A DNA stretch of 64,000 nucleotides from contig PMHJ01000019.1 in the NCBI GenBank assembly GCA_003158175.1, positions 4,375 to 68,374 of the forward strand, in the 5' to 3' direction. Below, in pieces: positions 12,768 through 36,520 of this stretch (the stretch's first letter is position 1; each line of letters starts with the position of its first letter). The translations under genes were made by a program, and so were the position numbers. The notes beneath the pieces were generated by a model. The model searched no databases. It was given only the letters and a program-made list of their open reading frames with translations, and was not told where the DNA came from. Source of the stretch: Candidatus Cybelea septentrionalis (lineage in GTDB: Bacteria; Vulcanimicrobiota; Vulcanimicrobiia; Vulcanimicrobiales; Vulcanimicrobiaceae).

Positions 12768-12805
12768 GCGGTAAGTCTACGCCAGAAAGCTTAGTTTTGC
12801 CAAGT

Positions 12806-13516: not shown

Positions 13517-13528
13517 GAAAACTAAAGA

Positions 13529-13585
13529 TGCCCCCGGCCCGCAGCAACGGACCGGAGGCGTCGCACCCGGAGGAGTTAGCTCCAG
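13529..13585 (+). promoter_or_regulatory. Conserved cas1 leader with hairpin, element B
   Basis: The untranslated leader tgcccccggcccgc...accggaggcgtcgca ends in a strong ribosome-binding site (ggagga, 13569-13574). It is nearly the same as the leader of the other cas1 at 28139. CCCCCGG and CCGGAGG can pair around a loop of about 14 bases. Conservation of untranslated DNA between two divergent elements suggests a function in controlling casposase expression. Confidence 0.5.
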
Positions 13586-15199: not shown

Positions 15200-15206
15200 G
15201 CCTCAG

Positions 15207-15259
15207 CGCCGAACGTCCTCAGCCGTCGATCCGTTACGTCGATCAGGGGAGCGCGGAGA
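15207..15259 (+). promoter_or_regulatory. Shared lipoprotein leader
   Basis: The DNA between the cas1 stop and the lipoprotein ATG (gcgccgaacgtcctcagccg, then gatccgttacg and ggggagcgcggaga) recurs inverted at 11165-11219 and in degenerate form at 1713-1770. It carries the ribosome-binding site (ggggag) and presumably travels as part of the cas1-tail/lipoprotein junction. No clear promoter boxes. Confidence 0.5.
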
Positions 15260-17232: not shown

Positions 17233-17324
17233 CCGGTCCATCCCCGCCGCCGCGCCCGCGAGGCCACATCGCGTTAGCGAGGTCAGCAGATTAGATCAAC
17301 GCGCATCGCTCGCATTGCAGCTTC

Positions 17325-17481
17325 GCGTGCCTCGCAGCGCAGCAGCTAGGCCTCGCAGCAGCCTCGCAGTTTTAGATCGCGGCGCTTAACGCGTTGCAGT
17401 TTGGATCGCGGCGGCTTGGATGCCTAGAGCTGAGCTGGCTGGGAGGGGGGCGTCGTTTCAAAGCGGCCTAACTCCTTACCC
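17325..17481 (-). repeat. Right terminal inverted repeat of element B
   Basis: 157 bp, perfect reverse complement of 9913-10069, ending ...cctaactccttaccc at the 15-bp site. The 92 bp between the last lipoprotein gene and this repeat hold no gene, only weak similarity to the DNA inside the left repeat. Confidence 0.95.
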
Positions 17482-17496
17482 CTTACGCTGCGGCTC
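17482..17496. repeat. Copy 3 of the 15-bp target site (B/C border)
   Basis: cttacgctgcggctc. It is flanked by ccc (end of element B) and ggg (start of element C). Together with 33871-33885 it is the target-site duplication of element C. Confidence 0.93.
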
Positions 17497-17690
17497 GGGC
17501 ATAGGGTTAGACCCCCAATTCCGGGCACCGCGACGACAAGCGCCTCGCGCGCCGGCCTCGCGAAAAGCCTATAAAATAACGCGTTTTCGGCTACCGCAAT
17601 CCTGCGTCGCGCGCGTGCAAACTTTGCATCGCCGTTTGCAAAATGTGGTAAGCGTCGAAAACACTATACGGCATAAGGAGTATTGTGACC
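17497..17690 (+). repeat. Left terminal inverted repeat of element C
   Basis: Matches the reverse complement of 33679-33870 in blocks: gggcatagggtta (13 identical), caattccgggcacc (14 identical), tcgcgcgcgtgcaaac and tttgca (about 22 identical), gtttgcaaaatg, gcgtcgaaaac and a final ttgtgac/ttttgac. A near-palindrome TGCAAACTTTGCA (17616-17628) followed by TTTGCAAA is conserved in both arms and is a candidate binding site for the casposase HTH. Confidence 0.9.
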
Positions 17691-17763
17691 TCTGGCGATG
17701 CACAGTAAAACCTAAATGCAATCGCCAGTGTGCAGACTTAATCACTATGACCGTCAAGACGCC

Positions 17764-19008
17764 TTAAGGCGCCACCACGAGTTCCTTAAAGCCCCTGAAA
17801 ACATCTTTGCGCGCTAGCAGGTCGGCGTTGAGAGTTACCCGATAAATTGGCCTCTGCTTATGATCCGTGCCGAGCTTCTCCATTCCAAAGTGTTCGCATA
17901 GCTTCTGGCCCTCTAATGTCCAACCTACGGCTGCAATATCGGCGACAACAGTACCATAGTCACGGTTGAACCCGATGTATTGGTTGATTACGGCATAAAC
18001 CAATCTCTCAAACGCGCGTTGGTAAATTCCGTCGGAAATGCGCCTTGCATCGGCCTCGATCACGATCGACATAAAATATAGATGCACCGTACCCGCTGTA
18101 TTGTACGGTAAGATGTCCTGCGCAGTGATTTTATTGTCCTCAAGCTCGCCTGCAAGAATACGTTTAAATGCGTCCGGAGTGACGGGCATAACGTTAGAGT
18201 AGCCTAGAATACGGCGTCCTCCACTGAGAACGTCAGTGAGAAAAACGTAAATGGTGGGGTTCACTGCTATCCAAGCGTCCGACAGATCATCGGGGATGAG
18301 TTCATCTTCTGTCGCGCCTGCAGCGCCAGTATATGCTGCAAGGTCCAGTTGGTGGGTGCTCTCAAATATCCGGTGAAACGAAGCGAGGTCTGGAACGTCC
18401 CGACCGTAAAGAACGCTAAACTGCAAGGACGGCTGCCTAAAGAAAGGAACCCACTGTTCTTCTATATTGATCTCTCTGTAGTAGTCCCCGTGAGTGAACT
18501 CTGAAAAGCACTTTTGCTCTAGAGTCGGCGAGGAAAAGCGAAAGCCTTTCGCGCCGCTGTCGCCCATATCTGACGCAAGATGTGCAGCTAAGGCGACCCA
18601 CACGTCTTTCAACCCGTAGTCATTGCGAGCGATCCAGAACTGATTTCGTTCAAGCAACGTCTGCCAGGGAAAGTCTCGTGGAAGGACACTCCCGCAAAAT
18701 AGGATCTTATCAAAACACAAGTCGGGGTATTTTATCATGGCGTGACCGACGAGATAAGCGCCGAGACTGTGGGCGATCACAGAAGGCCGCTCTCCTGGCC
18801 GCAAGCGATGGCGCCGCTCGACGTACCAGCTACGGAAGTTTTCGATCAAGCTGCGCCTAGTGACCGGCATGAGGAAACGCCCAAGATCAAAAAAGCCATA
18901 GTCGAAAGACGAAATCGCAAAGCCGTGATGGCTAAAAACGTCGGCGAGCGTCTTTTGCCAGGGGGCGAAGGTCTGGATGCCGTGAACCGTCATGACTTCT
19001 TTAGGCAT
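17764..19008 (-). CDS. Alpha/beta hydrolase fused to GNAT-like domain
   Basis: 414 residues. The N-terminal half (1-220) is an alpha/beta hydrolase: MTVHGIQTF oxyanion region, SFDYGFFDLGRF, and the nucleophile elbow IAHSLGAYL with Ser81; a His in 'SEFTHGDYY' may complete the triad. The C-terminal half (about 245-414: 'NPTIYVFLTDVLSGGRRILGYSNVMPVTPDAFKRIL', 'GYSN', 'GWTLEGQKLCEHFGMEKLG') looks like a GNAT acyltransferase fold. It is cargo beside the left TIR and its pairing of a hydrolase with an acyltransferase suggests a toxin- or defence-like effector; that role is inference. No signal peptide. Confidence 0.7.
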   Translation of the reverse strand: MPKEVMTVHGIQTFAPWQKTLADVFSHHGFAISSFDYGFFDLGRFLMPVTRRSLIENFRSWYVERRHRLRPGERPSVIAHSLGAYLVGHAMIKYPDLCFDKILFCGSVLPRDFPWQTLLERNQFWIARNDYGLKDVWVALAAHLASDMGDSGAKGFRFSSPTLEQKCFSEFTHGDYYREINIEEQWVPFFRQPSLQFSVLYGRDVPDLASFHRIFESTHQLDLAAYTGAAGATEDELIPDDLSDAWIAVNPTIYVFLTDVLSGGRRILGYSNVMPVTPDAFKRILAGELEDNKITAQDILPYNTAGTVHLYFMSIVIEADARRISDGIYQRAFERLVYAVINQYIGFNRDYGTVVADIAAVGWTLEGQKLCEHFGMEKLGTDHKQRPIYRVTLNADLLARKDVFRGFKELVVAP

Positions 19009-19125
19009 GGGTCACCCGCCTGAGCCATCGAGGCGCGCGAAACGTTGGGTGACAGAGAGGCTCAAAACGGTCACCATCGCGAGACCAGCCATCTGCGCTT
19101 AAACAAGTTTAGCAACGTCCCGCTT

Positions 19126-19977
19126 TCATGGGGGCAGCTCGCAATCGATTGGTGGCAGTGCATCGATCACCTCGCGGACGACGCGTAGAAGACTAAGATA
19201 CACGCTAAGGTTACCGTAGACTAGCTGTTGGTCGACGCGCGCGGCCCGGCCGTGCGCGACATCGTCGCGGTTTACACGAATGATCGTGATTAGTTGGTCT
19301 AGATATGCTTGCGCCTGGAAGCGCAGGTCATCATCGATCTCCTCCCAATGATTGCTCAAGAGCTTCAAGAACGTTTCAAACAACTTGTTCGTTTTAAAAC
19401 GGAGCTGACTGAACGCCTCCTGATATCGAGAGCGCCGTGCCTCCGACACATGTTCTAAAAACCGCTTTATGAGCCAGAGCATTAAACCCTCGGCCGATAC
19501 GCCTAGCATCACTGTCGCGCTTAGGTAAGAGCGATCGAGGAAATTCTTGTTAGCCTCGCTCAAATAGGTAAAGATTACCTCATCGGCCGCCGGCAAGCTA
19601 TCATTTGCGCTCTGCATATATTGTGAGCGGTCGTAAGGGTCAGCAAGCGATCCGCTAGTGCAGATCGAGATCCCCAATGGCGTGACGCGGAAGTATGGGA
19701 AAGCGCCATGCGTAGGAGTGAACTCGATGCCTCCAGCGGGAGCAGTCGATTTAGTACCCGGCACTATGATCCCATCTGCAACCAGCGACCAGACTGCAGC
19801 GTCAAAGGCCGTGTCCAATTCCCTAACACTGCCGCCACGCATGGCTGGGCGAATGAGATTCAACGTGATCTGGTTCGGGAAGCTAGGATTTGTCAAGGGC
19901 CCGAGCTTCTCTTTCATCAGGGCGAGGATGCCGGCACGTACACTATGAAGATCATTGGCGTCACAGTCGTCGTTCAT
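19126..19977 (-). CDS. wHTH plus HEPN-like protein, unknown
   Basis: 283 residues. Residues 10-110 resemble a winged-helix region (SVRELDTAFDAAVWSLVADGIIVPG...FRVTPLGISIC). The C-terminal helical half ends in NRDDVAHG, giving R237-x4-H242, the pattern of HEPN RNase-type active sites. HEPN proteins are common in abortive-infection and toxin-antitoxin loci. It stands alone between the hydrolase and propeller genes on the same strand. The HEPN assignment rests on one motif and the helical context. Confidence 0.6.
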   Translation of the reverse strand: MNDDCDANDLHSVRAGILALMKEKLGPLTNPSFPNQITLNLIRPAMRGGSVRELDTAFDAAVWSLVADGIIVPGTKSTAPAGGIEFTPTHGAFPYFRVTPLGISICTSGSLADPYDRSQYMQSANDSLPAADEVIFTYLSEANKNFLDRSYLSATVMLGVSAEGLMLWLIKRFLEHVSEARRSRYQEAFSQLRFKTNKLFETFLKLLSNHWEEIDDDLRFQAQAYLDQLITIIRVNRDDVAHGRAARVDQQLVYGNLSVYLSLLRVVREVIDALPPIDCELPP

Positions 19978-20017
19978 TTGATCTCGTCGCTCTGTCGATA
20001 AAGCAGAGAGCCGGGCA

Positions 20018-21907
20018 TCATAGTGATTCAGTGGCCCCCTGAGTCGATTGGAGGAAGTTGGGAATCATTCGAAGGTTATCCCCGTCTGTGTACCAGAGGT
20101 TCCCGCTCATATCCAATAACAATCCGTCAGGCTCGCCAGGCACCGAGAACTCCACGAAGCGACCTCGCGGCGAAACAATGCCGATGCGCCCGCTGCTTTC
20201 GCTGAATGCTGCATTGCCGTTGGGGAGCGCAATGATTTCGTCTGCGTCGCTATCGCTTCGCGGCACGGTGAACACATGGGCCTGGTTATTCGGATCAAGA
20301 TAACCTACGTTGTAGGAGGAGGAAAACCACAAGCCAAGTTGGCCGAACCCTAGGCCAAATGGTCCATCGCCTTTCGCGTTAAGGGGAACTTGCGTAATTT
20401 GGCCAAGCGGCGTCAAGCGCGCGATGCTTCCAGTGGCGAACTCCGCAACCCAGATATTTCCATCAGGTCCGATCCGAAGCTCGGATGGCTGGCTTCCGGC
20501 GGCTAACGGAAAGCTCTTTGTGGCGCGCGTTCCCGCGATCTCACTAACCGTGGCATTCTCTTGGCCGTATGAAAACCACACGCTCCCATCGTCAGCCGCT
20601 GCAATGCCGCCCATGGACTCGCCTTTAAGGCCCGCGGGCTCTGAAATCTTTCCCGTTGGGGCATAGGAGCCGATCCCCGAATGGCGCCCTCCCACCACTC
20701 CAAAACCGCGTTCGGTAAACCAAATGGTGCCATCTGGTGTTTCCGCAAGGTCACCGGGCATCGTCCCGGGCGGAAGAGTAATCTCATTCGCGACGTTGTC
20801 TTTACCGATCCGACCCAACCGATCGGCGGCGTTCTCGGAAAACCAGATCGAGCCGTTGCGAGACTGTAGGATCCGCTGAACACCGGCGCCCTTGCGAGTA
20901 AAGACGATCGTCGAGTTCAGCCTTGCGTAAGTGGCGCGCGGTTCGCAGTCATCGGGAACTGGTCGGCTCAAGCATTCATCAGTATATCTTGGCGGTAGGT
21001 CGACTATGCTGCGGTCGCTCTCGGCCAGGGTTCGCACGTGTCCGCGCTCCGTTATGTACACGTCCTGAACTCTAGCTCCATCGTGTAAGACCGTACGCTC
21101 TTCTTCGCGCTTGTAGAGGAGGAAACGAGTCTCAAACTCACGCGCAGCGGCCGGCTTTTCCGCACGAATGACGCGGACGTGGCACATATCGACTATCTGG
21201 TGGTCGGCTTTCTGCAAGTGGAACGGCGGGTGGCTAGGTTCGGCGAAGGGAGCCCGATACTCGGTTATAACCGAAATCGAGTGATAGCCAACAAGGGAAA
21301 CTCGCCCGGAGGCGCACGATCCCTTCGCGTCTTCGGCTACGGTTGACTCAACCGTCTGCTGACCCATAGCTGTGACACCGCTCAACGGTATAGCTGGAAC
21401 AGGCGAGTAGCGATCCCGGACCGCATAGACGGCTGAGCCGGGCGCTACGTTTAGCGAGAAAGCCGCAACCGTGCCGTATTGTGAGCGGCGGCCAAGCGCG
21501 AGCATCGCCTCGGCCTGCGACCCGGTGTATCTGCGAAAGGTCGCTGTTGCCTTGTCGGCAATGATTACGATCCTGCGCTGACGGTTAGCCAATTGTATTG
21601 ACTGTGCCGTTTCCACGCGCGTCCACCCGTCAAAATATGCGACGTGGTGCAGCGTCGCGTACTTGTGATCGTTGTCTCCGGTTTGGGTGTCAGCCCACCG
21701 ATAATCTCGCTCAAATGACCCCGGGGGCGAGTCGATCGTCTTTTCGCCAGGTAGATAGTCAAGCGATATTTCAATCTGGTCATATGCAAAGCGCGCCGGG
21801 GCGGCAGCGATCGCGGTGTGATTCTTGCCCGAACCAGCCGCAGCTATGGATGCCGCGACCACGACAACCATTCCAAGCGCTCGAAAAGCCTTGCAAAGGC
21901 TCCGCAT
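20018..21907 (-). CDS. Secreted protein with Vgb-like propeller domain
   Basis: 629 residues with an N-terminal signal peptide (MRSLCKAFRALGMVVVVAAS). Residues about 40-330 are unassigned and mostly beta. Residues about 345-620 are blades of the virginiamycin B lyase/NHL type: 'RNGSIWFSENAADRLGRIG', 'TPDGTIWFTERGFG', 'GPDGNIWVAEFATGSIARLTPLG', 'MSGNLWYTDG'. The catalytic residues of Vgb cannot be judged here. The gene starts 4 bp after the PolB stop, so it is translated as the last gene of the replication operon, which is unexpected for a secreted protein. Confidence 0.75.
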   Translation of the reverse strand: MRSLCKAFRALGMVVVVAASIAAAGSGKNHTAIAAAPARFAYDQIEISLDYLPGEKTIDSPPGSFERDYRWADTQTGDNDHKYATLHHVAYFDGWTRVETAQSIQLANRQRRIVIIADKATATFRRYTGSQAEAMLALGRRSQYGTVAAFSLNVAPGSAVYAVRDRYSPVPAIPLSGVTAMGQQTVESTVAEDAKGSCASGRVSLVGYHSISVITEYRAPFAEPSHPPFHLQKADHQIVDMCHVRVIRAEKPAAAREFETRFLLYKREEERTVLHDGARVQDVYITERGHVRTLAESDRSIVDLPPRYTDECLSRPVPDDCEPRATYARLNSTIVFTRKGAGVQRILQSRNGSIWFSENAADRLGRIGKDNVANEITLPPGTMPGDLAETPDGTIWFTERGFGVVGGRHSGIGSYAPTGKISEPAGLKGESMGGIAAADDGSVWFSYGQENATVSEIAGTRATKSFPLAAGSQPSELRIGPDGNIWVAEFATGSIARLTPLGQITQVPLNAKGDGPFGLGFGQLGLWFSSSYNVGYLDPNNQAHVFTVPRSDSDADEIIALPNGNAAFSESSGRIGIVSPRGRFVEFSVPGEPDGLLLDMSGNLWYTDGDNLRMIPNFLQSTQGATESL

Positions 21908-21911
21908 GCGC

Positions 21912-24900: not shown

Positions 24901-25316
24901 AAGACGAGCGTACCGCCGTGCTTGCGGAGCCGCCAGATGTGCGCGGAGAAGACCGCAGCGAGCGATTCGAGCCGCACGCCGATCGTGCGACAGATCTCGC
25001 GCAGCCGCGCGAACCCTTCGGGATCCGTACGGGGTAAGTGGTCGGCGTAGAAGACCGCACGCTCGACGAGCTTGCGGCGTCGGTACCGCTCGTAGGCACC
25101 GAAGGTTAGCCGGTGGTCGACGGTCTCGGTGTCGATGACGATAAACTCGCCGCCGAACCACGAGGCGGGCCGCGTCCGCGCCTCCCAACGTTCGCGCGCC
25201 GGCCGCCGCGGCAGCAGCGGCTCGGCGTACGCGCGCACAAAGACCTCGTTGCAGGTCGACGACCGCGCGATCTCTGGCACGATCGGATCGAAAGTTGCCT
25301 CGCGTACGTTAGCCAT
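21912..25316 (-). CDS. polB: Family-B DNA polymerase of casposon
   Basis: 1134 residues. Exonuclease: Exo I IDTET (62-66) and Exo II FFNACYDLSRLA (139-150). A YxGG-type motif (Y337-FGG) precedes motif A (D356AVSMYPT). Motif B is YKVMSNSGAYGV (663-674) and motif C YCDTDS (748-753), so all polymerase residues are present. About 300 residues separate motifs A and B, a long insert. The C-terminal region has a cysteine cluster (CCEAPRPSC...CLSC) and ends in an HTH (VARLARVSRSSVQALVNQG). It would copy the excised element. Whether it is protein- or RNA-primed cannot be told from motifs alone. It overlaps the HNH gene by 8 bp. Confidence 0.93.
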   Translation of the reverse strand: MANVREATFDPIVPEIARSSTCNEVFVRAYAEPLLPRRPARERWEARTRPASWFGGEFIVIDTETVDHRLTFGAYERYRRRKLVERAVFYADHLPRTDPEGFARLREICRTIGVRLESLAAVFSAHIWRLRKHGGTLVFFNACYDLSRLASSWRPATANQRRGARFVNGFEFVRRFRTAKDEQGHAMHDAEGALKFRTVDAVFARVRRDDRHHVRYDMARAKVLDLATLTHTLTDRIYSLERACEVFGVLFDRPGDHDGTISGPNVRGCLYDVAKTSELLYAAGHEYDRHPVDLAPWRAQSGASLAKAYLRAFGVAPRSVVQPDFSKEHQGIAATTYFGGRVECPILGHAPCVYIDAVSMYPTIFTLLNLWFDQVIPQRLEPEEIDPAEIQALLDEIHGDPRRLLDPKFWPQLAFFALVDPNGGHLPARPTIPSPLLSRSKLITLEAQRIFDEQTAAQAPFWTALDECGGKIVPDMVYDPKRRRWRPAGEFADIPRGLLKANRRRTPSGRVDGNTDRITHAARSLTGDHDLTTSDVLRFFATHERPSIEAARREAAAEIAKCEVDAAAHRLVSIGPLTSKTPLWFAGPDLASAAIADSGRPRILRAWRLKPDGVQETLRSVPFRGDEDDRIDPRTTNPWQRLVELRKRESGDARDDELRSDGYKVMSNSGAYGVCVETSPEDIDPQAERPTTRVHVRGLEEFIARVERPEFHSPLCSFPIAALVTAGARLLLAVAERLVHDAGGEVAYCDTDSLVIVATEHGGLVPSEFGPYVLPDGRRAVRALSWAQVDSILDDLARLKVYDPAAVSGSAFKLEPQNFDETDNQQQLWFFGTREKSYALYAYEADGMPVVVKHSAHTIGQYSSPYRRDPNRRWIREAWEYTIRKDLGLPVDDPPWFDLPAISQLTLTTANVMRSYVETSGPFDFVSVAQLAYPGLLRCCEAPRPSCVRLFDLATWAQHPWRCLSCGAAIDPYLADTEEPIFKTYRRVVASLAGSFGLKRLMADGSEPLHGNARGLTIPRPVNAEKIEHMGKEVIVDPTDTSEDLTAELLNATDPVIYRNARKSYDELRARIHVAGVSTVARLARVSRSSVQALVNQGAVPQAATIAKLEAALEHLRSPLDCFGRRSQPQKTKD

Positions 25317-25686
25317 GCCGCTTTACCTGTTTGCGTTCGAGGGTGTCGAGGTAGTCGGCCACCATCAAGATGAGGTGGGCGATCCCGCGCAGCAGCGTGG
25401 CCATCTTGCCGTGTGTCACGCCGCGCTCCATATTTTGCAGCGCGGTGATGACGCGGTGCCAGTTCGGCGTCAGGTCGAGCACGATGTTCCAGCCGCGCTT
25501 GGCGAGGTGATGCTGTTCGACTGGCTCCTCGCCGCGGTCGATCGCCGCGTCGTCCGCGCAGAGCACCAAGGCGGCGTCGCCGTCGAGCACGAGCGGGTCA
25601 TCTTCACCGCACGCCTCGCAAGAGGCGTCGGGCGGTAAGAGGTCGGCGCGCCGCGCGCGTTCGGCATCGAGACCGCCGTCACGCAA
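25309..25686 (-). CDS. HNH endonuclease-like protein next to PolB
   Basis: 125 residues. Cysteines C23, C26 and C43 and the segment EQHHLAKRGWNIVLDLTPNW-HR (H59/H60, N75, H77) form an HNH-type zinc nuclease pattern, similar to the element B protein at 11871 (EDNH...NDHR). The gene overlaps both neighbours (8 bp each), so basic protein, HNH and polymerase form one translationally coupled operon. A role in processing casposon or target DNA is inferred from its regular occurrence in casposons. Confidence 0.75.
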   Translation of the reverse strand: MRDGGLDAERARRADLLPPDASCEACGEDDPLVLDGDAALVLCADDAAIDRGEEPVEQHHLAKRGWNIVLDLTPNWHRVITALQNMERGVTHGKMATLLRGIAHLILMVADYLDTLERKQVKRHG

Positions 25687-26314
25687 AGCGCTCGTACTCG
25701 TGGCGGTCGCGGTAGAAAGTCAGCCCGAAGAGGTACTCGTCGTGATGGGCGTAGATCACGTCGAGATCGGTCACGAACGGTAGCCGCGTGCCGCTAATCT
25801 CGTCGTAAATCGAGTCGCCGTCAAAACTCGCGAAGGACGCGGGCTGATTCGAAAAGAGCTTGTCGACGGTGCCCCAGTACTTGCCTTCCTTCGAGCGGTC
25901 GTCTTTCGACGACGGCCACACACCCACGACGCCCTTCGCGACGGTAAGGTGCGGCATTGCCAGTTTGCCAGTCGAGGCGGGCGAGCTTGGCGGCGCTGTC
26001 GGCGCGGAGGCCTTGCGCGCACGGCGCGTTGCCCAGCCGCGCTTCGCCGCCTCGCTGCGCTTTTCGCGCGAGGTTTTCTTGCCGGTCGCACGCACGGCCG
26101 CGGTCTTGGCGATCGCCTTTCGCGCTTTGGTCAGGAGGCCTTTTGCTGCCGGAATCCGGCGCGCAAGTTTGTTGAGCGCGCGCGTCTTCGCGGCTTTCTT
26201 ACCTCGCGTTCTAGGTCGCGTACGCGCGAGCGCATCGCGCAGCGTTTCCAATTCAGCGAGCCGCGTGCGTGCGCTGCGGTATTTCGACCATGCACCGTCG
26301 CCACGTCGCGCCAT
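25679..26314 (-). CDS. Lys/Arg-rich protein, possible DNA-bound or terminal protein
   Basis: 211 residues. Residues 1-110 are very basic with many KK, RR and AKR runs (RGKKAAKTRALNKLARR, GKKTSREKRSEAAKRG), resembling histone-like tails. The C-terminal part is acidic and globular (YWGTVDKLFSN...FVTDLDVIYAHHDEYLFGLTFY), with several Tyr and Ser residues. It lies directly upstream of HNH and PolB in the same operon. Basic proteins of this size in front of a PolB gene can be replication primers (terminal proteins) or DNA-coating proteins; the sequence alone does not decide. No family recognised. Confidence 0.6.
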   Translation of the reverse strand: MARRGDGAWSKYRSARTRLAELETLRDALARTRPRTRGKKAAKTRALNKLARRIPAAKGLLTKARKAIAKTAAVRATGKKTSREKRSEAAKRGWATRRARKASAPTAPPSSPASTGKLAMPHLTVAKGVVGVWPSSKDDRSKEGKYWGTVDKLFSNQPASFASFDGDSIYDEISGTRLPFVTDLDVIYAHHDEYLFGLTFYRDRHEYERFA

Positions 26315-26432
26315 GTTACGGCCCCACGCTATTGAAGTGTACGGCTAGGGAACGCGGCGCGATCGCCGAATCGTTGTTGTAAGGAACAGCGCTTCCGCGA
26401 CCCGCGTGCCCGCGCGGGTCTTTGCTCTTCAT

Positions 26433-26699
26433 CTACATCGCACCGTCCGGCGGTGGCAGCCACCGTCCCAAGAGCCAGATGCCGCCGACGATAACAACCG
26501 CAATGCTGGCGACGATGCACCAGTCACGCGCCGTTAGTGGCTCACTGTCGGGAGCGGGATCACCGCGCCCCAGATATTCGCGCGCGATGGCCCTCACCGA
26601 AAAGTCGGAGCAGCCCGCGCGCCGACTGATTTCGCGATAACTCAAGTCCGGATCGTCGAGTAGTTGCTCGATGAGGGCGCGATTCACTCGGGAGCTCAT
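26433..26699 (-). CDS. Small HTH protein with C-terminal membrane anchor
   Basis: 88 residues. The N-terminal half holds a helix-turn-helix (LLDDPDLSYREISRRAGCSDFSVRAIAREYLG); the C-terminal half a single hydrophobic helix (WCIVASIAVVIVGGIWLLG) and a short tail. The ATG overlaps the stop of the upstream XRE gene (ATGA type). A membrane-tethered DNA-binding protein could be a regulator or could localise the element; both are inference. The larger open frame that extends upstream is out of frame with the XRE gene and was not used. Confidence 0.65.
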   Translation of the reverse strand: MSSRVNRALIEQLLDDPDLSYREISRRAGCSDFSVRAIAREYLGRGDPAPDSEPLTARDWCIVASIAVVIVGGIWLLGRWLPPPDGAM

Positions 26700-26932
26700 T
26701 CCGCGAGCCTCGCGATTGCCGGGCCGAGGGCCTCGGCTAGATCGACCGGCGCTAGGAGATCGGCGGCCACTTCTGGGCCAAAGACCTCTTCGAAGCGGTG
26801 GATCCACCGATCTGACGGCTCGACCTCGCCTCGCTCGATGGCGGAAACGATGTAGGCCGGCAGGCGCAAGTCGCGCGCCACCTCGCGAAGCGGCTTGCCC
26901 TGTAGCAGCCGATAAACCCGTAATTTTCGCAT
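26696..26932 (-). CDS. XRE-family HTH regulator
   Basis: 78 residues. MRKLRVYRLLQGKPLREVAR, then LRLPAYIVSAIERGEVEPSDRW, is a classical Cro/C1-type HTH. The start at 26932 has a good ribosome-binding site (tggaggc, 7 bp). It is the first gene of the minus-strand block and faces the divergent gene at 27005 across 72 bp, the usual place for a repressor that controls both directions. Confidence 0.75.
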   Translation of the reverse strand: MRKLRVYRLLQGKPLREVARDLRLPAYIVSAIERGEVEPSDRWIHRFEEVFGPEVAADLLAPVDLAEALGPAIARLAE

Positions 26933-27004
26933 GATACGCCTCCAGTGAGACGACCATATCATGAAGCGGAATATCGCGTAATGCGGGCGAAATAATGTCC
27001 TATT
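26933..27004. promoter_or_regulatory. Divergent control region of element C
   Basis: 72 bp between the XRE gene (minus) and the gene at 27005 (plus). It contains near-repeats (atatcatga, atatcgcgtaatgcgg) and is the only place where promoters for the replication block and for the cas1 block could both lie. No ribosome-binding site is seen before the ATG at 27005, so that transcript may be leaderless. Confidence 0.45.
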
Positions 27005-28126
27005 ATGCCTCCACCGGAGAGTCGGTCCGAAGGGCGCAAGGAAGACCGCGAGCGTAGCGGTCGGCGCGAACCGACCTTTTTGCGCCCTGACGAATGGCCC
27101 GGGGCAGGCGCCTTCCTCGAACAGGCCTTCATCGACAGCGGGCTGTCCAAGCGCAGCCTCTTAGCTGCGATCCGCTATGAAGGCGGGACAAATCGCCTCA
27201 ACGGCTGGTTTCGCGGCGACCCCCGGCCGACACCGAAGACGCTCGCGAAAGTCTGCCCGCTGCTGAAGCTGTCCTACCTCGAAGCGATCGATCGGTTCGG
27301 CTATTATCGCGAGCTACTTCGAATCTTCGACGATCTCGTGCAGCTCGGTGACCGCTGGCGCGAAGAAGACGGCGCGTTCGGCAAGTTACTTCGTTCAGGT
27401 CCCGATCCCAAGGCAATACGCGACAGCGGTGTGGTGTATTGGCGCGGTCGCGTGATCACCTGGGGGCGCAAGGCCATCGGATTTGAGCCCTGGGATCCTC
27501 GCGATGACCCGAGCTTCGAAAAGCGCTACACCGTTGGCGAATGGCATGAGCCGATGCCGCAAATGGAACGCGACACACCGGACATCGTGCGTGATGCTGT
27601 CAGAGCCACTCGCTCCACCGTGACCGTAGCGCCAAAGCCAACCGCCGTCGCAATCCTGCTCGCCGTCCTGGCGTTCGAACGCCGGGGCGACCGCTATCGG
27701 CAGGGTGCAGTCGACTATCGGTTCCAACTCGCGAAGGCGGCCGACGCGTTAGTCTCCGAAGCACGGCGACTTCGGACGCGCGGCGCCGGCCGTCCGCGGA
27801 AGATCCATCCACTGTTACAGCGTGCAATGGACACGCTTGATGGTTCCGCGATTCTTTTCAATTCGCGCCGCCCAATTGCGGCCGAATACATCATCGCTTG
27901 GGCGGAATCAGTCTGTGAACCCTACACGCAATTCGCGCGCCTTGCCGCGTTTGACATTTGGGGAGAGGCTGGCGGGCTGCCCAGAGCACCCTCCACAGCG
28001 ACGCTTAAGGCTGTGCCCGGAAAAACCACGTCGGCGAAGATCGCGTTCCCTTCGGTGTATACGCAATTGCCACAACTGTTCGAAGCAACACTTCCCGACA
28101 TCGAGCAGCTTACGACGTACAACTAA
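27005..28126 (+). CDS. Unknown HTH-type protein upstream of casposase
   Basis: 373 residues. After a charged N-terminus, residues 33-100 (FLEQAFIDSGLSKRSLLAAIRYEGGTNRLNGWFRG...PTPKTLAKVCPLL) resemble a DNA-binding HTH region. The rest is largely helical, with a basic patch (RRLRTRGAGRPRKIHPLLQRA) and no recognised domain. It is separated from cas1 only by the conserved 67-bp leader region, so it probably shares its transcript. Element B has no counterpart. It may be a casposase cofactor or regulator; this is a positional guess. Confidence 0.65.
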   Translation: MPPPESRSEGRKEDRERSGRREPTFLRPDEWPGAGAFLEQAFIDSGLSKRSLLAAIRYEGGTNRLNGWFRGDPRPTPKTLAKVCPLLKLSYLEAIDRFGYYRELLRIFDDLVQLGDRWREEDGAFGKLLRSGPDPKAIRDSGVVYWRGRVITWGRKAIGFEPWDPRDDPSFEKRYTVGEWHEPMPQMERDTPDIVRDAVRATRSTVTVAPKPTAVAILLAVLAFERRGDRYRQGAVDYRFQLAKAADALVSEARRLRTRGAGRPRKIHPLLQRAMDTLDGSAILFNSRRPIAAEYIIAWAESVCEPYTQFARLAAFDIWGEAGGLPRAPSTATLKAVPGKTTSAKIAFPSVYTQLPQLFEATLPDIEQLTTYN

Positions 28127-28138
28127 TCACACAAAGGT

Positions 28139-28193
28139 GCCCCCGGCCCGCGCGAACGAGCCGGAGGCGTCGCATCAGGAGGAACTTCTCCCA
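28139..28193 (+). promoter_or_regulatory. Conserved cas1 leader with hairpin, element C
   Basis: Near copy of 13529-13585: tgcccccggcccgc..gaacg, gccggaggcgtcgca, then ggagga as ribosome-binding site (28178-28183). CC(C)CCGGC pairs with GCCGG(A)GG around a loop of about 12 bases. The hairpin is kept although flanking genes differ completely. Confidence 0.5.
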
Positions 28194-29798
28194 ATGCAAG
28201 ATCAGCACTTTACGCTTCCCTTTCCACCCTTGCAAGTGCGCGCCGGCGTGCTCGTCGTCGACGGCTACGGGATCAGCGCCCGCGTGCTCTATGGAAAACT
28301 CCGGATCGAGGATGGGATCGGCCCGCACCGCCGCACGATCGCGCTCGACCGTGCGGGCTCCGGACTGGAACGCCTGGTGCTGCTCGGTAAGAGCGGCACG
28401 CTTACCTTAGAGAGCCTCGCCTGGCTGCGGGCAATGGGCGCGAGCATGGTCCACCTTAGCCTCGATGGTGAGGTCCTCACGCACTCGGCGCCCTTCGGCT
28501 ACGACGGGCACCCGATCCGCCGCGCTCAAGCGCTCGCCGTCGCGAATGGTCTCGATGTGGACCTCGCGCGGTATCTCATCGCTGAAAAAACGAAAGGCCA
28601 GCGCACGAACCTCGCGCGGCTGGGCGTCGGCGATCTGCGGTCGTTCGACGGTTGCCGCGATGCGTTGGACCGCGCCGAGACGATCGAGGAAGTCCGTCTT
28701 TGCGAGGCGCAGGCGGCGGCGATCTATTGGAATTCGTGGTCAAACGTCTCCATTCGTTTGCGGAATCGCGACCTCGTGCGCATACCCATCGCGTGGAGTC
28801 GCTATCAATCCCGAAAGTCCACGCTTACCGGAGCACCGCGCGCGGCGACTAATCCAGTAAATTCCCTCTTGAACTATGTCTATAGTCTCTTGGAATGCGA
28901 GGCGCGTCTCGCATTATTGGCGGCCGGTTTGGACCCGACGCTGGGTGTTCTTCACGCCGACCAGCGCAATAGGGACTCGTTCGCGCTCGATGCGATGGAG
29001 CCGGTACGGCCGGCGGTGGACGCCTTCATTCTCGATCTGCTCGACGAGCGCGTGCTGACCTCGCGCGACTTCGTGGAGCTACCGAACGGCGTCTGCCGCG
29101 TGCGCGCGCCGTTGACGCACGACCTCGCACTCACGTTGCCAAAATGGCGTCAGTTGATGGCGCCGATTGTCGCGCACCTCGCACAGGTGTTTCGCGGTCC
29201 CGTCCATCGCGCGCCCGTTACCACCGTGGTACCTCGCAGTACAAACTCCCACCGCGCGACTGCCGCCGCAACCTCGGCACAATCGCCGTTGCAGCGGACA
29301 CCTCGCAAGACCACGCAGCCGCGGCCGTACACGAGCAAGGCCTGGGGCACACCGCGCCCGGAACCGCTGCGCCTCGTGCCGATCGCGTGCGCCGCGTGCG
29401 GTGGTCCCGTGGTGAAGCGACGGCGCCTGCACTGCGATGCGTGCATCCCTGGCATGAAAGTGGCGCAGGCAAGTAAAGCGGTCGTAGCCGCGCGCAGAGC
29501 GCTCGCAGCGCAGGCGGCCGCGGGCAAGGATCCGCGTAAGGACTCCGACGTCAACCGCAGGCGCGCAGCGGCGATATCCGAAGCGCATCGCCGTAATCGC
29601 GAGTGGAAGCGCGAGTGTGGTGGCCTGCGCGACGAGGCATGGTTCCGGCGTGAAGTTGTGCCGAAGCTTGACCGGTTCTCGCTCGGCGAAATTGCAGCGG
29701 TGACGGGATTATCACTCGCAGCGTGCTCACGGATCAGGGCGGGTCGTCGACTGCCGCATCCAAGCCATTGGGAGGCTCTTGAGGCGCTGATAGCCTAA
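28194..29798 (+). CDS. cas1: Solo Cas1 integrase (casposase), element C
   Basis: 534 residues. Same layout as the element B protein: Cas1 beta domain (1-110), catalytic helical domain with E171 (CEAQAAAIYW), H254 (GVLHADQRNR) and D266/E269 (ALDAMEP), the 'NSLLNYVYSLLECEARLALL...GLDP' hallmark, a four-cysteine finger (C399, C402, C414, C417) and a C-terminal HTH (LGEIAAVTGLSLAACSRIRAG). The open frame extends upstream to 27822 but that part is antisense or out of frame with the gene at 27005. The start is fixed by a ggagga site and by homology. It is expected to integrate the element at the secA end, leaving the 15-bp duplication. Confidence 0.94.
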   Translation: MQDQHFTLPFPPLQVRAGVLVVDGYGISARVLYGKLRIEDGIGPHRRTIALDRAGSGLERLVLLGKSGTLTLESLAWLRAMGASMVHLSLDGEVLTHSAPFGYDGHPIRRAQALAVANGLDVDLARYLIAEKTKGQRTNLARLGVGDLRSFDGCRDALDRAETIEEVRLCEAQAAAIYWNSWSNVSIRLRNRDLVRIPIAWSRYQSRKSTLTGAPRAATNPVNSLLNYVYSLLECEARLALLAAGLDPTLGVLHADQRNRDSFALDAMEPVRPAVDAFILDLLDERVLTSRDFVELPNGVCRVRAPLTHDLALTLPKWRQLMAPIVAHLAQVFRGPVHRAPVTTVVPRSTNSHRATAAATSAQSPLQRTPRKTTQPRPYTSKAWGTPRPEPLRLVPIACAACGGPVVKRRRLHCDACIPGMKVAQASKAVVAARRALAAQAAAGKDPRKDSDVNRRRAAAISEAHRRNREWKRECGGLRDEAWFRREVVPKLDRFSLGEIAAVTGLSLAACSRIRAGRRLPHPSHWEALEALIA

Positions 29799-29807
29799 CA
29801 GAGCTGC

Positions 29808-30686
29808 ATGATTCGCTTTACTGGGTACACCCACGACGAGCCGATTCCTGTGAACATTCCGTATCGGGCCGTTTACGACGAGGAGTTGACACTCGCCCTT
29901 GGTGATGCGATCGGCGCTTTGGTCTGTGCGGTGGGGGCTGCGCGTGGAAAAGACCTTTCCGACGATCCGGAAGAGCTGCGCTGGATGAAGGAGTTTCTTA
30001 TCGGCTTCGCTCTGCTCGCGATTGGTGAGGCGCGAAGCGTGATCATGCTCCTGAGTGACGGCCTAAGTCGGCATGCGCGCGTTCACATGCGCGCACTCTT
30101 TGAATATGAGCTTCGTGTCAAGCTCTTGGCGAAAGAACCGAGGCGCGCGCTAGAGGTTCGCGATTCGATAGCGTTCGAAATGCGCAAGGTTGGGTATGGG
30201 TTGGGCGGCTCGCCCGAGACAACCGAACAGCAAATCGCTGAGGCGCTTGGCATAACCGACGCCTCGAAAATAATTGGGACGAAAGAAAGCGATGCCTTTG
30301 GAGGCACCGTTCGTAGCCAAATGAAAGACGAAATCTGGCCGGAGAGACGCTACTTCGGTTCGTTTGCCGGTATGAGTTGGGTCTCTCACGGCTCAATACT
30401 GGCGATTAGAGAGGTGTCCAGAGCGGTACGCGACGCGGGGTCCGACTTACTACGCTGCGCGGCCGACGACGGTAACGGAAACGACTGGCTCCATCACGCT
30501 GCGTGGATCCTCCTGAAGCTGACTGGCTTAACACAAGAACACTTCGGCATCGAGGTGCCGGGCGCGCAAGCTGCAGCGGCCCGGCTCGTTCGGGCAAACC
30601 AGCGCCTGGGAATCGTTACAAAGGCACATGAAGCTGCCGCTGAGGATGCCTTGGCTGCTCGCCAGGCGAAAAACGACACCCTTTGA
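29808..30686 (+). CDS. DUF5677-like helical protein
   Basis: 292 residues, helical. The segment SRHARVHMRALFEYELRVKLLAKEP resembles the core of DUF5677-type proteins and a comparable segment of the gene at 32726 (GREARILTRQVFEYLFKAQYFAKHP). A second conserved-looking part is 'YFGSFAGMSWVSHGS'. It follows cas1 after 9 bp, so it is likely cotranscribed. Function unknown; such proteins are often found among defence or abortive-infection genes. Confidence 0.6.
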   Translation: MIRFTGYTHDEPIPVNIPYRAVYDEELTLALGDAIGALVCAVGAARGKDLSDDPEELRWMKEFLIGFALLAIGEARSVIMLLSDGLSRHARVHMRALFEYELRVKLLAKEPRRALEVRDSIAFEMRKVGYGLGGSPETTEQQIAEALGITDASKIIGTKESDAFGGTVRSQMKDEIWPERRYFGSFAGMSWVSHGSILAIREVSRAVRDAGSDLLRCAADDGNGNDWLHHAAWILLKLTGLTQEHFGIEVPGAQAAAARLVRANQRLGIVTKAHEAAAEDALAARQAKNDTL

Positions 30687-30868
30687 TACCAAGTCCTTGG
30701 CTTTGTGTAAGCAAAGAGCCAAACTAGTGACGGCAGCGGAGGAAGACGCGAAATCTGTCGCCGACCGTCTGAAGCTTTTTCTGGCGATAGCCCACCGCCG
30801 AGCTTCTCGTTCAGCAAAGTACCGCATCTAGGTAAATGGATTCGATTCCAAAATAAAGATGGTCGATC

Positions 30869-31909
30869 GTGGGTGACAGCAGACTGAACCGTCAGAGAAT
30901 CTCAATCGTTAGCGGGCGCCGCCCTCATCCCTCGCGTTCCGTTCGGCTGCCACCATCAGAGAGTCGATGCTTTCTCTGCAGGATTGAACTGAGCGACGTC
31001 ACCTCAAGCCGAGAGCATATTTTCCCAAAATGGCTTCAGCGGCTGATGTCCCTAAGCCCTACGACCCTGCAGATGCTCAACCAGCGCTCGCAGCGCTTAC
31101 CGAGCCTCACAGTCCCCTGTTGTTACGAATGCAATCAGGAGCTGCGGCGTTTCATCGAGACGCCCATCGTGACAGCTGTCAAACGAGGCTACGAGGCTGT
31201 TAAAAGCCTTCATCCTACTCTCCTCTTCCTTTGGCTCGGCAAGATGTACTACGCGCTACGCTACCGAGAGCGCTTTCAGTTGGCCAACCCACGGAGCCCT
31301 GAAATGGGAACGATCGTTTCCGAGGAAGCATTGAACGACCTTCATCTGATGCATTGCTTCCTGCAAGGTATCCGTGGCGGGTTAAGCGTTGGCGACGCGT
31401 GCCCTTGGTCTCTAGTGGTGTGCAACACCCGGCAATATGCCGAGAAAGCCTTGAATTTCGACTATCGTGATGGGCGCAACGTAGATGCTGTCGCGGTCAG
31501 GGTTAAATCCACGGGAATAATCATGACCTTCGGAGATCAAGGATACGCGCATACCACCGCAGAGCATCTGTTAGATCTGATCGGCGATGAGCCTCTTCAC
31601 CGGTTACAGTTTGCTGAGCTGTACTCACGCATGTGGTACGCTGCACACCTTCGGAACCGGCCTTACTCATATCACCTCAGCTTCGGGCCGGTAGTGACAA
31701 GTAGGCTACTTGGTAACGCAAAGAACAAGATGTATGCGGAATATTTCGATCAATGGAAGGATGCTGATTACGTGAACATACTAGCTGCAGCTACTGGAAT
31801 ACCGCCCGATGCCCTCTTCCAGCCGCCGGACTTGGTACGGTGCTTCATTCACGACACGGAGGGAAGGTTTGCTAAGATGCCGGAGCACCTGACAGATGAA
31901 CTTAACTGA
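30869..31909 (+). CDS. HNH-type zinc nuclease-like protein
   Basis: 346 residues from a GTG start. C34-x2-C37, then SREHIFPKWLQRL (E49-H50), then VPCCYECNQELRR (C85-x2-C88-N89) form an HNH/treble-clef nuclease signature of the EHIFPKW type. The rest, about 240 residues, is unassigned. It overlaps the next gene by 14 bp, so the two form one unit. A two-gene nuclease/TIR-like module carried on a transposon suggests phage defence (inference). The 182 bp before it hold no gene. Confidence 0.7.
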   Translation: MGDSRLNRQRISIVSGRRPHPSRSVRLPPSESRCFLCRIELSDVTSSREHIFPKWLQRLMSLSPTTLQMLNQRSQRLPSLTVPCCYECNQELRRFIETPIVTAVKRGYEAVKSLHPTLLFLWLGKMYYALRYRERFQLANPRSPEMGTIVSEEALNDLHLMHCFLQGIRGGLSVGDACPWSLVVCNTRQYAEKALNFDYRDGRNVDAVAVRVKSTGIIMTFGDQGYAHTTAEHLLDLIGDEPLHRLQFAELYSRMWYAAHLRNRPYSYHLSFGPVVTSRLLGNAKNKMYAEYFDQWKDADYVNILAAATGIPPDALFQPPDLVRCFIHDTEGRFAKMPEHLTDELN

Positions 31910-32648
31910 AGTTGATCGCAAGATCCTTACATGGCTGCGTGCGCTGGGGAGCGAACCGGACTATACTCACCAGACGAATAGTCGTTCATACGGTCAGGCC
32001 GCTCGGAAGGCGGCAGAGGTTCTGAAAATCGACCCGCTTATGATCCGCGATCGACTCCTCGCCTTCGAGCAAGAAGGTCTAGCCGAGCTTGTCCCCCGCT
32101 CCGGTTATAGCGGCATCTACTATGCACGAATTACCGATGAAGGGCGCCAAGAACTACGGCGACCAGTCTCCGGCGCTATTGAAGGAACCCCAATCATTTT
32201 TGTTAGTTGCGGGCAAACAACCGAGGCAGAGCGGGACCTTGGATCCGCGATAGCTGGCATCATTAACGAGGAGACGGCGGCCGAAGCATACTATGCCGAA
32301 AATCAGGCGACGCTCGAAGGAGTTTCATCACACATCCTTGGGTCGCTGTCGCGTTGCGCGGGATTCGTCGGCGTCATGCATTACCGCGGGCTCGTCTCCG
32401 AGCCAGACAGTACATCCTATCAACGCGGATCGGTCTGGATAGAGCAGGAAATCGCGATCGCTGCGTACCGAATCCATACGTTGGGACAAACTCTTCCCGT
32501 CCAACTCTATATCCAGCGCGATATCAAGCGCGAGGGCCTTCGCGACAAGGTGCTGCTTAATCCGACAACGTTCGACAAGAACGAACAGGTTATCGAGCAC
32601 TTCCGCTCTGTTGTAAAGGAACGATTCGGCGCACTTGCTGCGAACTAA
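31896..32648 (+). CDS. wHTH plus TIR-like Rossmannoid domain
   Basis: 250 residues. Residues 1-90 form a winged helix (VDRKILTWLRAL...QAARKAAEVLKIDPLMIRDRLLAFEQEGL...ARITDEGRQEL). From residue 95, TPIIFVSCGQTTEAERD, 'AYYAENQATLEGVSSHIL', 'CAGFVGVMHYRG' and 'SVWIEQEIAIAAY' follow the pattern of TIR/nucleoside-deoxyribosyltransferase-like nucleotide-binding effectors, with E in 'WIEQE' as a possible catalytic residue. It is coupled to the HNH gene upstream. Confidence 0.65.
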   Translation: MNLTEVDRKILTWLRALGSEPDYTHQTNSRSYGQAARKAAEVLKIDPLMIRDRLLAFEQEGLAELVPRSGYSGIYYARITDEGRQELRRPVSGAIEGTPIIFVSCGQTTEAERDLGSAIAGIINEETAAEAYYAENQATLEGVSSHILGSLSRCAGFVGVMHYRGLVSEPDSTSYQRGSVWIEQEIAIAAYRIHTLGQTLPVQLYIQRDIKREGLRDKVLLNPTTFDKNEQVIEHFRSVVKERFGALAAN

Positions 32649-32725
32649 GTTCGGACGAGTGCCACCGAGCCGAATCAAGCCCGCGCCTGTGCGGTAGGCG
32701 AAGGTCTCGCGTTAAGGGGGCCCGC

Positions 32726-33670
32726 TTATTTTAGGTGAGTTAATAGGCGATCTTCAACTTGCCTCACACGGCCGGAGAATCGGTCGATATCCTTTCCTTT
32801 TCCGAGCGAGAAGACACCGTTCAGGATCCTTAGAAACGCGGCGAGATATCGAGCGAGATCGAGTAGTGTGAGATGCGGATCGGCGTCCCTGCTATCGAAC
32901 TTTACGCCTTCGGCAGTGACGGTATCACGAATGCCCAGAACGCTTCCGTGCAGCGTCCGGCTCGGCAATCGATAGTGAAAGCCATACGCGTCTCGCCGCC
33001 GCCGGCTCTGGCGACCCATCGATTCCGGCACGGTTGGCGGTTCCTTTCGCCGCGTTTTCTTCGCATATTCGTATAATCGTGGGCGTTTCTTTGCAACTAA
33101 ATCGCACTCGGCTTTGAGTCGCCGATACCGTGCAGTTCGCCGGTCGTAACCGAGGTCGTCGAGAAGCCACAGTTCACGAAACGGCTCCGTCTCCAGCTCA
33201 CGTCGCGCCTCTCTTGGGTGCTTCGCGAAGTACTGAGCCTTAAACAAGTATTCAAACACCTGTCGGGTGAGAATGCGAGCTTCGCGCCCGAGGTTGTGGA
33301 CGGATAATGTAAGCGCACCGTCTGATGCCCCGAGGATCAGCGAAGCATAGTACAGCGTCCAGACCATTACAGGATCGGGGAGCAGTTCCCGCGTCGTGGC
33401 TTGCCGCATTCTCAGAGGGATGTCGACGCGATCACCAAGGTAGGGTTGTATTGCGCGGAGCAGATCCCAACACAGTTGCCCGAGCTCCGCGTCAATGCGA
33501 TCGTCTAGCTGGTAGCTGCATTTTAGCTTCGACATCAGGCGGAGTTTTGAAACCCGAGACGCTGACACCTCGAAGTTCTGACGGAAGCGGACGAGAGCGC
33601 GCGGGTTGGTGATTCCGCCTCCCTCCATGCTCGACGCTTGCCAGTGTAAGAGCCCCCCGTCACGCGTCAC
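32726..33670 (-). CDS. DUF5677-like helical protein
   Basis: 314 residues from a GTG at 33670; starts at 33628 or 33535 (MSKLKCSYQLDDRID) are equally possible, and no strong ribosome-binding site decides. The core GREARILTRQVFEYLFKAQYFAKHPREARREL resembles that of the gene at 29808. A basic stretch (KKTRRKEPPTVPESMGRQSRRRRD) follows. It is the last gene before the right TIR. Function unknown. Confidence 0.65.
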   Translation of the reverse strand: MTRDGGLLHWQASSMEGGGITNPRALVRFRQNFEVSASRVSKLRLMSKLKCSYQLDDRIDAELGQLCWDLLRAIQPYLGDRVDIPLRMRQATTRELLPDPVMVWTLYYASLILGASDGALTLSVHNLGREARILTRQVFEYLFKAQYFAKHPREARRELETEPFRELWLLDDLGYDRRTARYRRLKAECDLVAKKRPRLYEYAKKTRRKEPPTVPESMGRQSRRRRDAYGFHYRLPSRTLHGSVLGIRDTVTAEGVKFDSRDADPHLTLLDLARYLAAFLRILNGVFSLGKGKDIDRFSGRVRQVEDRLLTHLK

Positions 33671-33678
33671 CGCCCATC

Positions 33679-33870
33679 GTCAAAACGCCTTACGGTATAT
33701 AGCGTTTTCGACGCATGTGGCATTTTGCAAACGGTCGTGCAAAGTTTGCACGCGCGCGACGCGAGATCGCGATACTGAAAAAATCCTTATTTTACCGGCT
33801 TTTTCGCATGCTGGCTGGATCGGCGCCTTGTCGCCAGGGTGCCCGGAATTGACCCCTTAACCCTATGCCC
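33679..33870 (-). repeat. Right terminal inverted repeat of element C
   Basis: Counterpart of 17497-17690, ending ...ttaaccctatgccc at the 15-bp site. The palindrome TGCAAAGTTTGCA (33738-33750) and cattttgcaaac (33721-33732) mirror the motifs of the left repeat. Confidence 0.9.
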
Positions 33871-33871
33871 C

Positions 33872-36520
<2,649 letters not shown>

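Follow-up and report, generated by a model that had tools for sequence, protein, structure and literature searches.

Casposons have been proposed as the source of CRISPR adaptation. We examined one such element, E3, at positions 17497-33870 of a 64,000-nucleotide stretch of contig PMHJ01000019.1 (hereafter the window), where it lies against the 3' end of the gene secA. In make-up E3 resembles the family 3 casposons (AceAut-C1 of Candidatus 'Acetothermum autotrophicum'), described as bacterial elements with a solo Cas1 bearing C-terminal zinc-binding and helix-turn-helix (HTH) parts, a B-family DNA polymerase (PolB) and terminal inverted repeats (TIRs); the median length reported there for the target site duplication (TSD), 15 nt, equals the 15 bp seen here (PMC4046053). 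This likeness is drawn from description, the tree discussed below holding no family 3 sequences, and the present locus differs in having the 3' end of secA as its target and several unrelated elements in tandem. The thaumarchaeal family 1 casposons, as characterised in PMC6563490, similarly insert across the 3' end of a gene encoding a conserved protein and re-use their target, two of them lying in tandem in ef-2 of Ca. Nitrosopumilus adriaticus NF5; unlike the elements described here they are archaeal, target ef-2, occur as two elements, encode a protein-primed PolB and are given no extra Cas1 domains in that account. The Methanosarcina casposons (MetMaz-C1) furnish the casposase closest to that of E3 in the PDB, and their new copies are reported to insert at the TSD beside old ones, a mini-casposon inserting at a resident TSD in vivo (PMC10359463); in contrast to E3, they are described as archaeal elements of families 2 and 4 with a tRNA target (PMC9939771).

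Tandem archaeal casposons are already known: three adjacent ones are recorded in M. burtonii (PMC4046053), and tandem arrays in M. mazei strains are mentioned in a review (PMC9939771). Only four bacterial casposons figure in the 2014 survey (PMC4046053), and among the papers listed by our literature search none joined a casposon with secA or with Eremiobacterota, though others may exist beyond those listed. The secA target, the recurrence of bacterial arrays in several genera and a leader delineated by comparing sites appear to be new here. The locus shares with CRISPR arrays a Cas1, insertion adjacent to a leader, a duplicated target between inserts and, on a weak test, older inserts lying further from the leader; unlike CRISPR arrays, it has no Cas2, inserts of 5-16 kb with their own ends and genes, a plain 15-mer as its repeat and no sign of RNA-guided interference. 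We propose, with a probability of about 0.86, that E3 is an integrated casposon and that a tandem casposon array, anchored on secA and built by casposases at a leader, occupies the neighbouring 33 kb (1230-33885).

With TIRs, a target duplication of about 15 bp, a B-family polymerase and a solo Cas1 that retains its catalytic residues, the stretch 17497-33870 is a casposon by the criteria tested. Its TIRs (17497-17685 and 33681-33870) pair in inverted orientation over 191 columns with 75.4% identity, and the direct repeat CTTACGCTGCGGCTC stands exactly at both flanks (17482-17496 and 33871-33885). The Cas1, 534 aa from the likely start M125 of the listed open reading frame (ORF), matches Pfam Cas_Cas1 (E=6.5e-38); E171, H254, D266 and E269, as well as C399, C402, C414 and C417 of a CxxC..CxxC part, are invariant in an alignment of 14 sequences, and the conserved tail that follows looks HTH-like by inspection. 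The PolB carries what we take to be the exonuclease motif (DTET at 62) and motifs A (DAVSMYP at 356), B (KVMSNSGAYG at 664) and C (YCDTDS at 748). It has no Pfam match but matches the PHROG 'DNA polymerase' (E=1.1e-8). Its AlphaFold model is weak (mean pLDDT 57.9), yet the 11 structures that match it best are all B-family DNA polymerases; the polymerase is intact and of the B family. A Pfam scan of 14 E3 ORFs (other, mostly overlapping ORFs lying outside the scan) revealed neither a recombinase other than Cas1 nor a cas gene besides cas1; CRISPR arrays were not searched for genome-wide. An earlier note on this DNA had described a complete bacterial casposon here, with TIRs of about 190 bp, 15-bp direct repeats, a solo Cas1 with E171/H254/D266 and a PolB with motifs A, B and C. 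These observations are confirmed, and the element is real, correctly bounded and structurally complete. It does not, however, stand alone: in a tandem array of at least three different elements it occupies the place nearest secA and looks the newest. The note had overlooked two more exact 15-mers, at 1230-1244 and at 9898-9912, and the second Cas1, encoded at 13586-15199.

The 15-mer, which read with secA is GAGCCGCAGCGTAAG, is exact in four copies, T1 to T4, all in one orientation, and these delimit the elements E1, E2 and E3 (Table 1). With up to three mismatches the target as a 17-mer occurs five times in the window against 0.27 expected, and none of 100 shuffles reaches five; with up to two mismatches, the whole genome of the window (G000; other G labels denote family genomes and L labels loci) has four copies of it in the array and a single one outside, the latter at another two-sided element junction. 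T3 and T2 are each flanked on both sides by element ends beginning with GGG, and T4 also abuts a GGG-type end. The TIRs of E2 are 89.7% identical over 232 columns. E1 carries six lipoprotein-like matches, and its left end is disturbed by an IS110-like remnant. The target copy found elsewhere in G000, at L015:7565 (contig C36), has one mismatch and lies between two element ends; this junction is possibly a distal piece of the secA array.

Table 1. The proposed secA-anchored array: features and their positions in the window
Feature	Positions	Strand	Evidence and remarks
Casposon E3 (complete, secA-proximal)	17497-33870	no strand	TIRs, 15-bp target copies on both sides, intact Cas1 and PolB
Left TIR of E3	17497-17685	no strand	begins GGGCATAGGGTTA
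Right TIR of E3	33681-33870	no strand	inward start GGGCATAGGGTTA
Cas1 (casposase) of E3	28194-29798	+	Pfam; Cas1 domain, CxxC..CxxC zinc-binding-like part, C-terminal HTH-like tail
PolB of E3, 1134 aa	21912-25316	-	motifs, PHROG, fold; C-terminal HTH-like segment
secA, 882 aa, target gene	33872-36520	-	ends in SEC-C motif; SecA_DEAD E=4e-129, SEC-C E=4.3e-10 (Pfam)
Putative leader, secA SEC-C codons aagttcaaacgctgccatg	33886-33904	-	directly upstream of target; motif at 19 secA and 9 other sites
Target copy T4	33871-33885	-	adjoins secA, holds its stop codon
Target copy T3	17482-17496	-	between E3 and E2; element ends on both sides
Target copy T2	9898-9912	-	between E2 and E1
Target copy T1	1230-1244	-	older broken cas1 remnant beyond it
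Older broken cas1 remnant beyond T1	contig C20:3435-4068, outside the window		
Casposon E2	9913-17481	no strand	own TIRs, intact Cas1, N-terminal PolB fragment, lipoprotein-like cargo
E2 Cas1, 537 aa	13586-15199	+	Pfam E=5.6e-33
E2 PolB fragment (exonuclease part)	12728-13516	+	aligns at 40% identity with a casposon PolB from another genome (181 columns)
Element E1, decayed	1245-9897	no strand	cas1 3' remnant within 3566-4480; right end GGGATAGGAG
373-aa protein, adjoins cas1	27005-28126	+	common to other casposons; homologues beside cas1 in L054, L061, L063, L064, L068, L069, L144
211-aa protein	25679-26314	-	common to other casposons (L054, L061, L063, L143)
125-aa small protein (HNH of the earlier note)	25309-25686	-	common to other casposons (L054, L063, L143); no Pfam match
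88-aa HTH protein	26696-26962	-	HTH_31 E=2e-5, below Pfam cut-off
Cargo: alpha/beta-hydrolase-like, weak	17764-19008	-	Abhydrolase_6 E=0.0021, below cut-off
Cargo: 283-aa unknown protein	19126-19977	-	no match in Pfam, PADLOC or NCBIfam
Cargo: virginiamycin-B-lyase-like propeller protein	20018-21907	-	Vgb_lyase E=2.6e-48
Cargo: DUF5677-like, weak	29808-30686	+	E=0.0029, below cut-off
Cargo: HNH_5-like, weak	30869-31909	+	E=2.1e-4, below cut-off
Cargo: unknown protein (TIR-like in the earlier note)	31896-32648	+	no Pfam match, no convincing PDB match
Cargo: DUF5677 protein	32726-33670	-	E=1.1e-6, over cut-off; 67% homologue in L059

The best PDB match of E3 Cas1 is the M. mazei casposase 6opm, both by sequence (1.2e-17) and by fold (ranks 1-3), the match being clearer by fold. 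A tree was built from which L069, incomplete casposase sequences and the CRISPR rows L111 and L112 were excluded; casposases entered it cut to 345 aa, and of the long fused CRISPR proteins only the final 360 aa were used. In it a branch supported at 100/99 separates 21 casposase-like Cas1 of the family, that of E3 among them, from eight CRISPR Cas1 and the sole archaeal casposase, 6opm. Cas2 was found in none of 18 genomes of the window's genus by a search whose control matched 7 of 14. A Cas1 nested in a CRISPR-linked clade with cas2 and an array nearby, which the earlier note had singled out as an observation that would overturn it, was therefore not encountered; with Cas2 found in none of these genomes, the system is not a CRISPR adaptation module, and its repeats separate whole transposons. 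Pfam PF01867 matches 8 of the 18 genus genomes, and weaker, casposase-like Cas1 matches (sorted by score, not each examined) are present in up to 24 of 99 family genomes, nine loci elsewhere in the family scoring 251-333 bits being presumed CRISPR-type Cas1. Relatives of E3 Cas1 in named genomes (n=21) belong to Candidatus Eremiobacterota (17), to records named 'bacterium' (3) and to an Acidobacteriaceae genome (1), from which we infer a bacterial host of the lineage Candidatus Eremiobacterota. A scan of IMG/VR confirmed no relative, and a plasmid search returned 29 records, all below 60% identity, of which the 15 listed are annotated as CRISPR cas1.

The Acidobacteriaceae sequence, L166 (PLHQ01000166.1, Acidobacteriaceae bog_206, a bog metagenome-assembled genome), is a partial relative with 41% identity in another phylum, which reflects either transfer or misbinning. 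In addition, contig C18 of G000 harbours a casposase of another, distinct lineage together with a PolB belonging to it (L013:9381-10751 and 13107-16229); in the tree this lineage forms one clade of eight rows across the family.

Comparison across genomes points to a sequence element that accompanies the target. A motif composed of leader and target is common to 19 secA sites and nine sites away from secA's own stop; eight of these nine came from a composite pattern of target and element end and the ninth (G015:C63) from a separate search, and two of them lie about 110 and 135 bp beyond the stop. Upstream of the 15-mer the nine sites share AARTACAAGAAATGCCAC, at -34 to -17 from the element junction. 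Positions -34 to -23 lie outside the search pattern, and all 12 of them except -32 and -30 agree in at least eight of the nine sites; further upstream, the sequence differs in most of the nine. The sites are not all independent, as three share further upstream sequence; two end in an IS110-like element. The casposase of A. boonei is reported to require a leader motif that lies eight bases upstream of the segment it duplicates, and two-thirds of that segment can be deleted (PMC6614799); by analogy, the SEC-C codons of secA may take the part of the leader here. At L057:17854-17987 (contig C17 of G016) the final ~130 bp of secA recur apart from the gene, with a casposon-type end after them; secondary targets may represent copied secA tails.

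Among the 18 genus genomes, secA was found by DNA in 16 and its 3' end was read in 12. A GGG-type casposon end directly follows the target in eight (G000, G001, G003, G005, G006, G011, G013 and G015); in G016 such an end follows a second target ~135 bp beyond the secA stop, in G014 (directly) and G002 (~110 bp beyond the stop) the end runs into an IS110-like element, and in G010 the contig ends at the 3' end of secA. The composite pattern was found at 27 places in 22 of 99 family genomes and 7 of 38 genera, the reversed-pattern control giving 0 of 99; discounting three of these places, which are IS110-like ends, leaves 20 genomes in 7 genera. When the 15-mers of the 19 secA sites were each searched downstream of their own gene on both strands, seven further exact copies were found (three in G000, two in G097, one each in G075 and G068), all in the same orientation, against two matches for 5700 control 15-mers (300 per secA). 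Perfect extra copies are thus carried by genomes of three other genera besides that of the window, where the arrays are independent. The 15-mers of these four genomes differ from one another yet each equals that of its own secA, as target duplication predicts. G001, a sister species with a secA 95% identical, has a one-mismatch target copy followed by a GGG-type end, and its 11.2 kb share only four matches over 250 bp with the G000 array (290-349 bp, 68-77%); array turnover therefore looks fast.

Sites without an insert are found in the same family. Twenty-eight genomes of other genera were chosen, five of them known carriers of the pattern; 25 had a SecA match and 24 secA ends were readable, of which five carry the pattern, two more (G051, G081) have GGG-type starts and 17 continue into unrelated sequence. 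The next conserved gene past secA is prfB (TIGR00020). In 14 of the 17 genomes without an insert (the 14 retrieved) it lies 1.0-5.1 kb away, so that related genomes with an insert-free secA locus, for which the earlier note had suggested a search, do exist as 14 uninterrupted secA-prfB intervals. In occupied genomes the distance is 5.6 kb (G068) or, in the window's genus, 36.0 kb (G003) and 42.8 kb (G005), prfB lying beyond the sequence at hand in eight further ones. G096 has the same 15-mer as the occupied G094 and no insert; together with the 17 unrelated ends among 24, this led us to reject the idea that a native secA flank had been mistaken for a TIR. No far flank of an occupied site was seen as the direct flank of an empty one.

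Arrays of this kind could in principle have grown from one casposon insertion, the other copies arising by segmental duplication or by homologous recombination between the 15-mers. Tandem repeats often arise in such ways, and cas1 3' tails and lipoprotein genes do recur inside the array; for the casposons of M. burtonii, duplication is described as not excludable in the 2014 paper (PMC4046053). Yet the Cas1 proteins of E2 and E3 are only 62% identical and fall apart in the tree, where E3 belongs to a group of six (97/98) that excludes E2; with 85-87% identity to L068 and to the main part of L065, the E2 protein has closer relatives in other species than in E3, the TIRs of the two elements are alike at their tips only and their gene contents differ. 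Because of these differences E2 and E3 represent successive insertion of different casposons and not duplication, and we consider growth of the array by duplication highly improbable. Hardly more credible is a view of the secA end as the attachment (att) site of an unrelated integrase island, with the casposons as its passengers. It is true that 3' gene ends commonly serve as att sites, that in G003 and G005 the 20 kb downstream of secA hold small cas1 fragments only, and that the prfB of G000, on contig C15, is preceded by 40 kb without a Cas1 or PolB match or a target copy (up to two mismatches). The last of these, with the long secA-prfB gaps, means that casposons occupy the secA edge of a larger variable island that is only partly casposon. 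The target copies T4, T3 and T2, however, directly abut the GGG-type ends (T3 and T2 on both sides), no integrase is found among the 14 E3 ORFs scanned, and a duplication of 14-15 bp is the known product of casposases (PMC6614799).

A graver alternative to a working array is a graveyard of relics from an old invasion, in which no casposon moves today. Many cas1 copies of the family are fragmentary, and the E3 TIRs are just 75% identical; on the other side, the Cas1 of both E3 and E2 and the PolB of E3 are intact and retain their catalytic residues or motifs, the 15-mers are perfect, and the few matches between the arrays of G001 and G000 suggest fast turnover. We regard this alternative as possible but doubtful; some array element may still be active, mobility being indicated only indirectly, by secA ends with and without inserts. 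Several other facts weigh against a casposase-built, leader-anchored array. T1 has an outer neighbour without a GGG start, its other neighbour being the IS110-like end; 15 of the 19 secA sites have no further exact copy, many of them with short sequence past secA, and G003, G005, G015 and G076 have none in 20-58 kb. No Cas1 or PolB match was found in the second elements of G097 and G075 or in the 3.1-kb insert of G068, and some array members are thus relics or not casposons. By sequence the CRISPR Cas1 4n06 is nearly as close to E3 Cas1 (2.7e-17) as 6opm, and the position of 6opm relative to the CRISPR rows has a support of only 57/30. Polarity could be tested only weakly, in three arrays, and in G000 the E2 Cas1 is as intact as that of E3, while TIR identity (E3 75%, E2 90%) runs opposite to it.

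Taking the secA-anchored array as casposase-built, we propose that the Cas1 casposase would recognise the ~20-bp leader in the SEC-C codons together with the start of the adjoining 15 bp, and would join both ends of the element (5'-GGG.ATAGG-like) to the target with a stagger of 15 bp, whereupon gap repair would duplicate the 15 bp. SecA would be unchanged by the insertion because its stop codon lies within the 15 bp. The leader would thereby regain an adjacent target at which later casposons could insert, pushing older ones away from secA; PolB would presumably replicate the element. Insertion is expected always to be leader-proximal, next to secA: internal target copies lie between TIRs and have no leader, so a leader-dependent casposase would be confined to the secA-adjacent copy, and the elements closest to secA should be the newest. 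This fits the three arrays that have at least two elements (G000, G097 and G075), where the secA-proximal element keeps more Cas1 plus PolB than the others.

The end of a single protein gene has thus been filled repeatedly in one mostly uncultured bacterial family, with target copies and leader readable from sequence. The secA arrays make testable both the identity of the leader and growth from the leader side as in CRISPR arrays, and Cas1 elements shape the region beside an essential gene (secA-prfB). A more far-reaching idea, which we consider unlikely, is that the secA locus of the family is a standing, leader-anchored, polar casposon array and a living counterpart of the proposed step from casposon target to CRISPR array: unrelated Cas1 elements would be stored there one by one together with surface-protein cargo, and what dead elements had carried would be retained by the host.

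The remaining genes of E3 do not support the earlier suggestion of a carrier of defence genes. Only one DUF5677 protein and the Vgb-lyase-like protein exceed the Pfam cut-off among the cargo; PADLOC, given ten E3 proteins (the 88-aa HTH, 373-aa and propeller proteins being outside the input), matched Cas1 alone, NCBIfam gave only weak polymerase matches for ten proteins, and PDB sequence searches of three cargo proteins yielded nothing convincing. The defence-cargo reading is hence not supported for E3. The proposed TIR-domain-like protein likewise found no backing, its notable relative being a 54% homologue in L138 beside cas1 and PolB fragments. Other assignments held in part: of the two DUF5677-like proteins the one at 32726-33670 stands and that at 29808-30686 falls short, the hydrolase is recognisable only as a weak Abhydrolase_6 match, and for the HTH regulators an HTH_31 match was seen, again below the cut-off. 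As to HNH, the protein at 25309-25686 has no Pfam match (E<=0.05), and HNH_5 appears weakly in 30869-31909. The HTH-like segment at the C-terminus of PolB is a weak match to PHROG 18104 (E=0.023). A homologue of the protein beside cas1, L063:7080-8276, shows a weak Pfam match to CRISPR_Cse2 (E=0.0029, below cut-off). We also considered, and dropped, the idea that cargo is loaded at the cas1 3' end in one common manner, as inspection of 40 cas1 tails by eye showed no shared boundary downstream.

An IS110-family transposase gene (L140:7092-8096; PF02371 E=6.8e-27, PF01548) ends ~20 bp from the casposon target junction of G075, and the same IS110-like end follows the target in G014 and G002 (L055, L048) and sits at T1 (window 1245-1400); the Pfam assignment to the IS110 family comes from L140 only. 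An IS110-family element may thus home on casposon tips. Lipoprotein-like genes form a family with many copies in E1, E2 and beyond (window 89-9690, 10175-11164 and 15260-17232), two of which were scanned against Pfam with no match. Several of them begin shortly past a cas1 3' end, and an inverted 444-bp duplication (10985-11428 and 14996-15439) joins a cas1 tail to a lipoprotein start.

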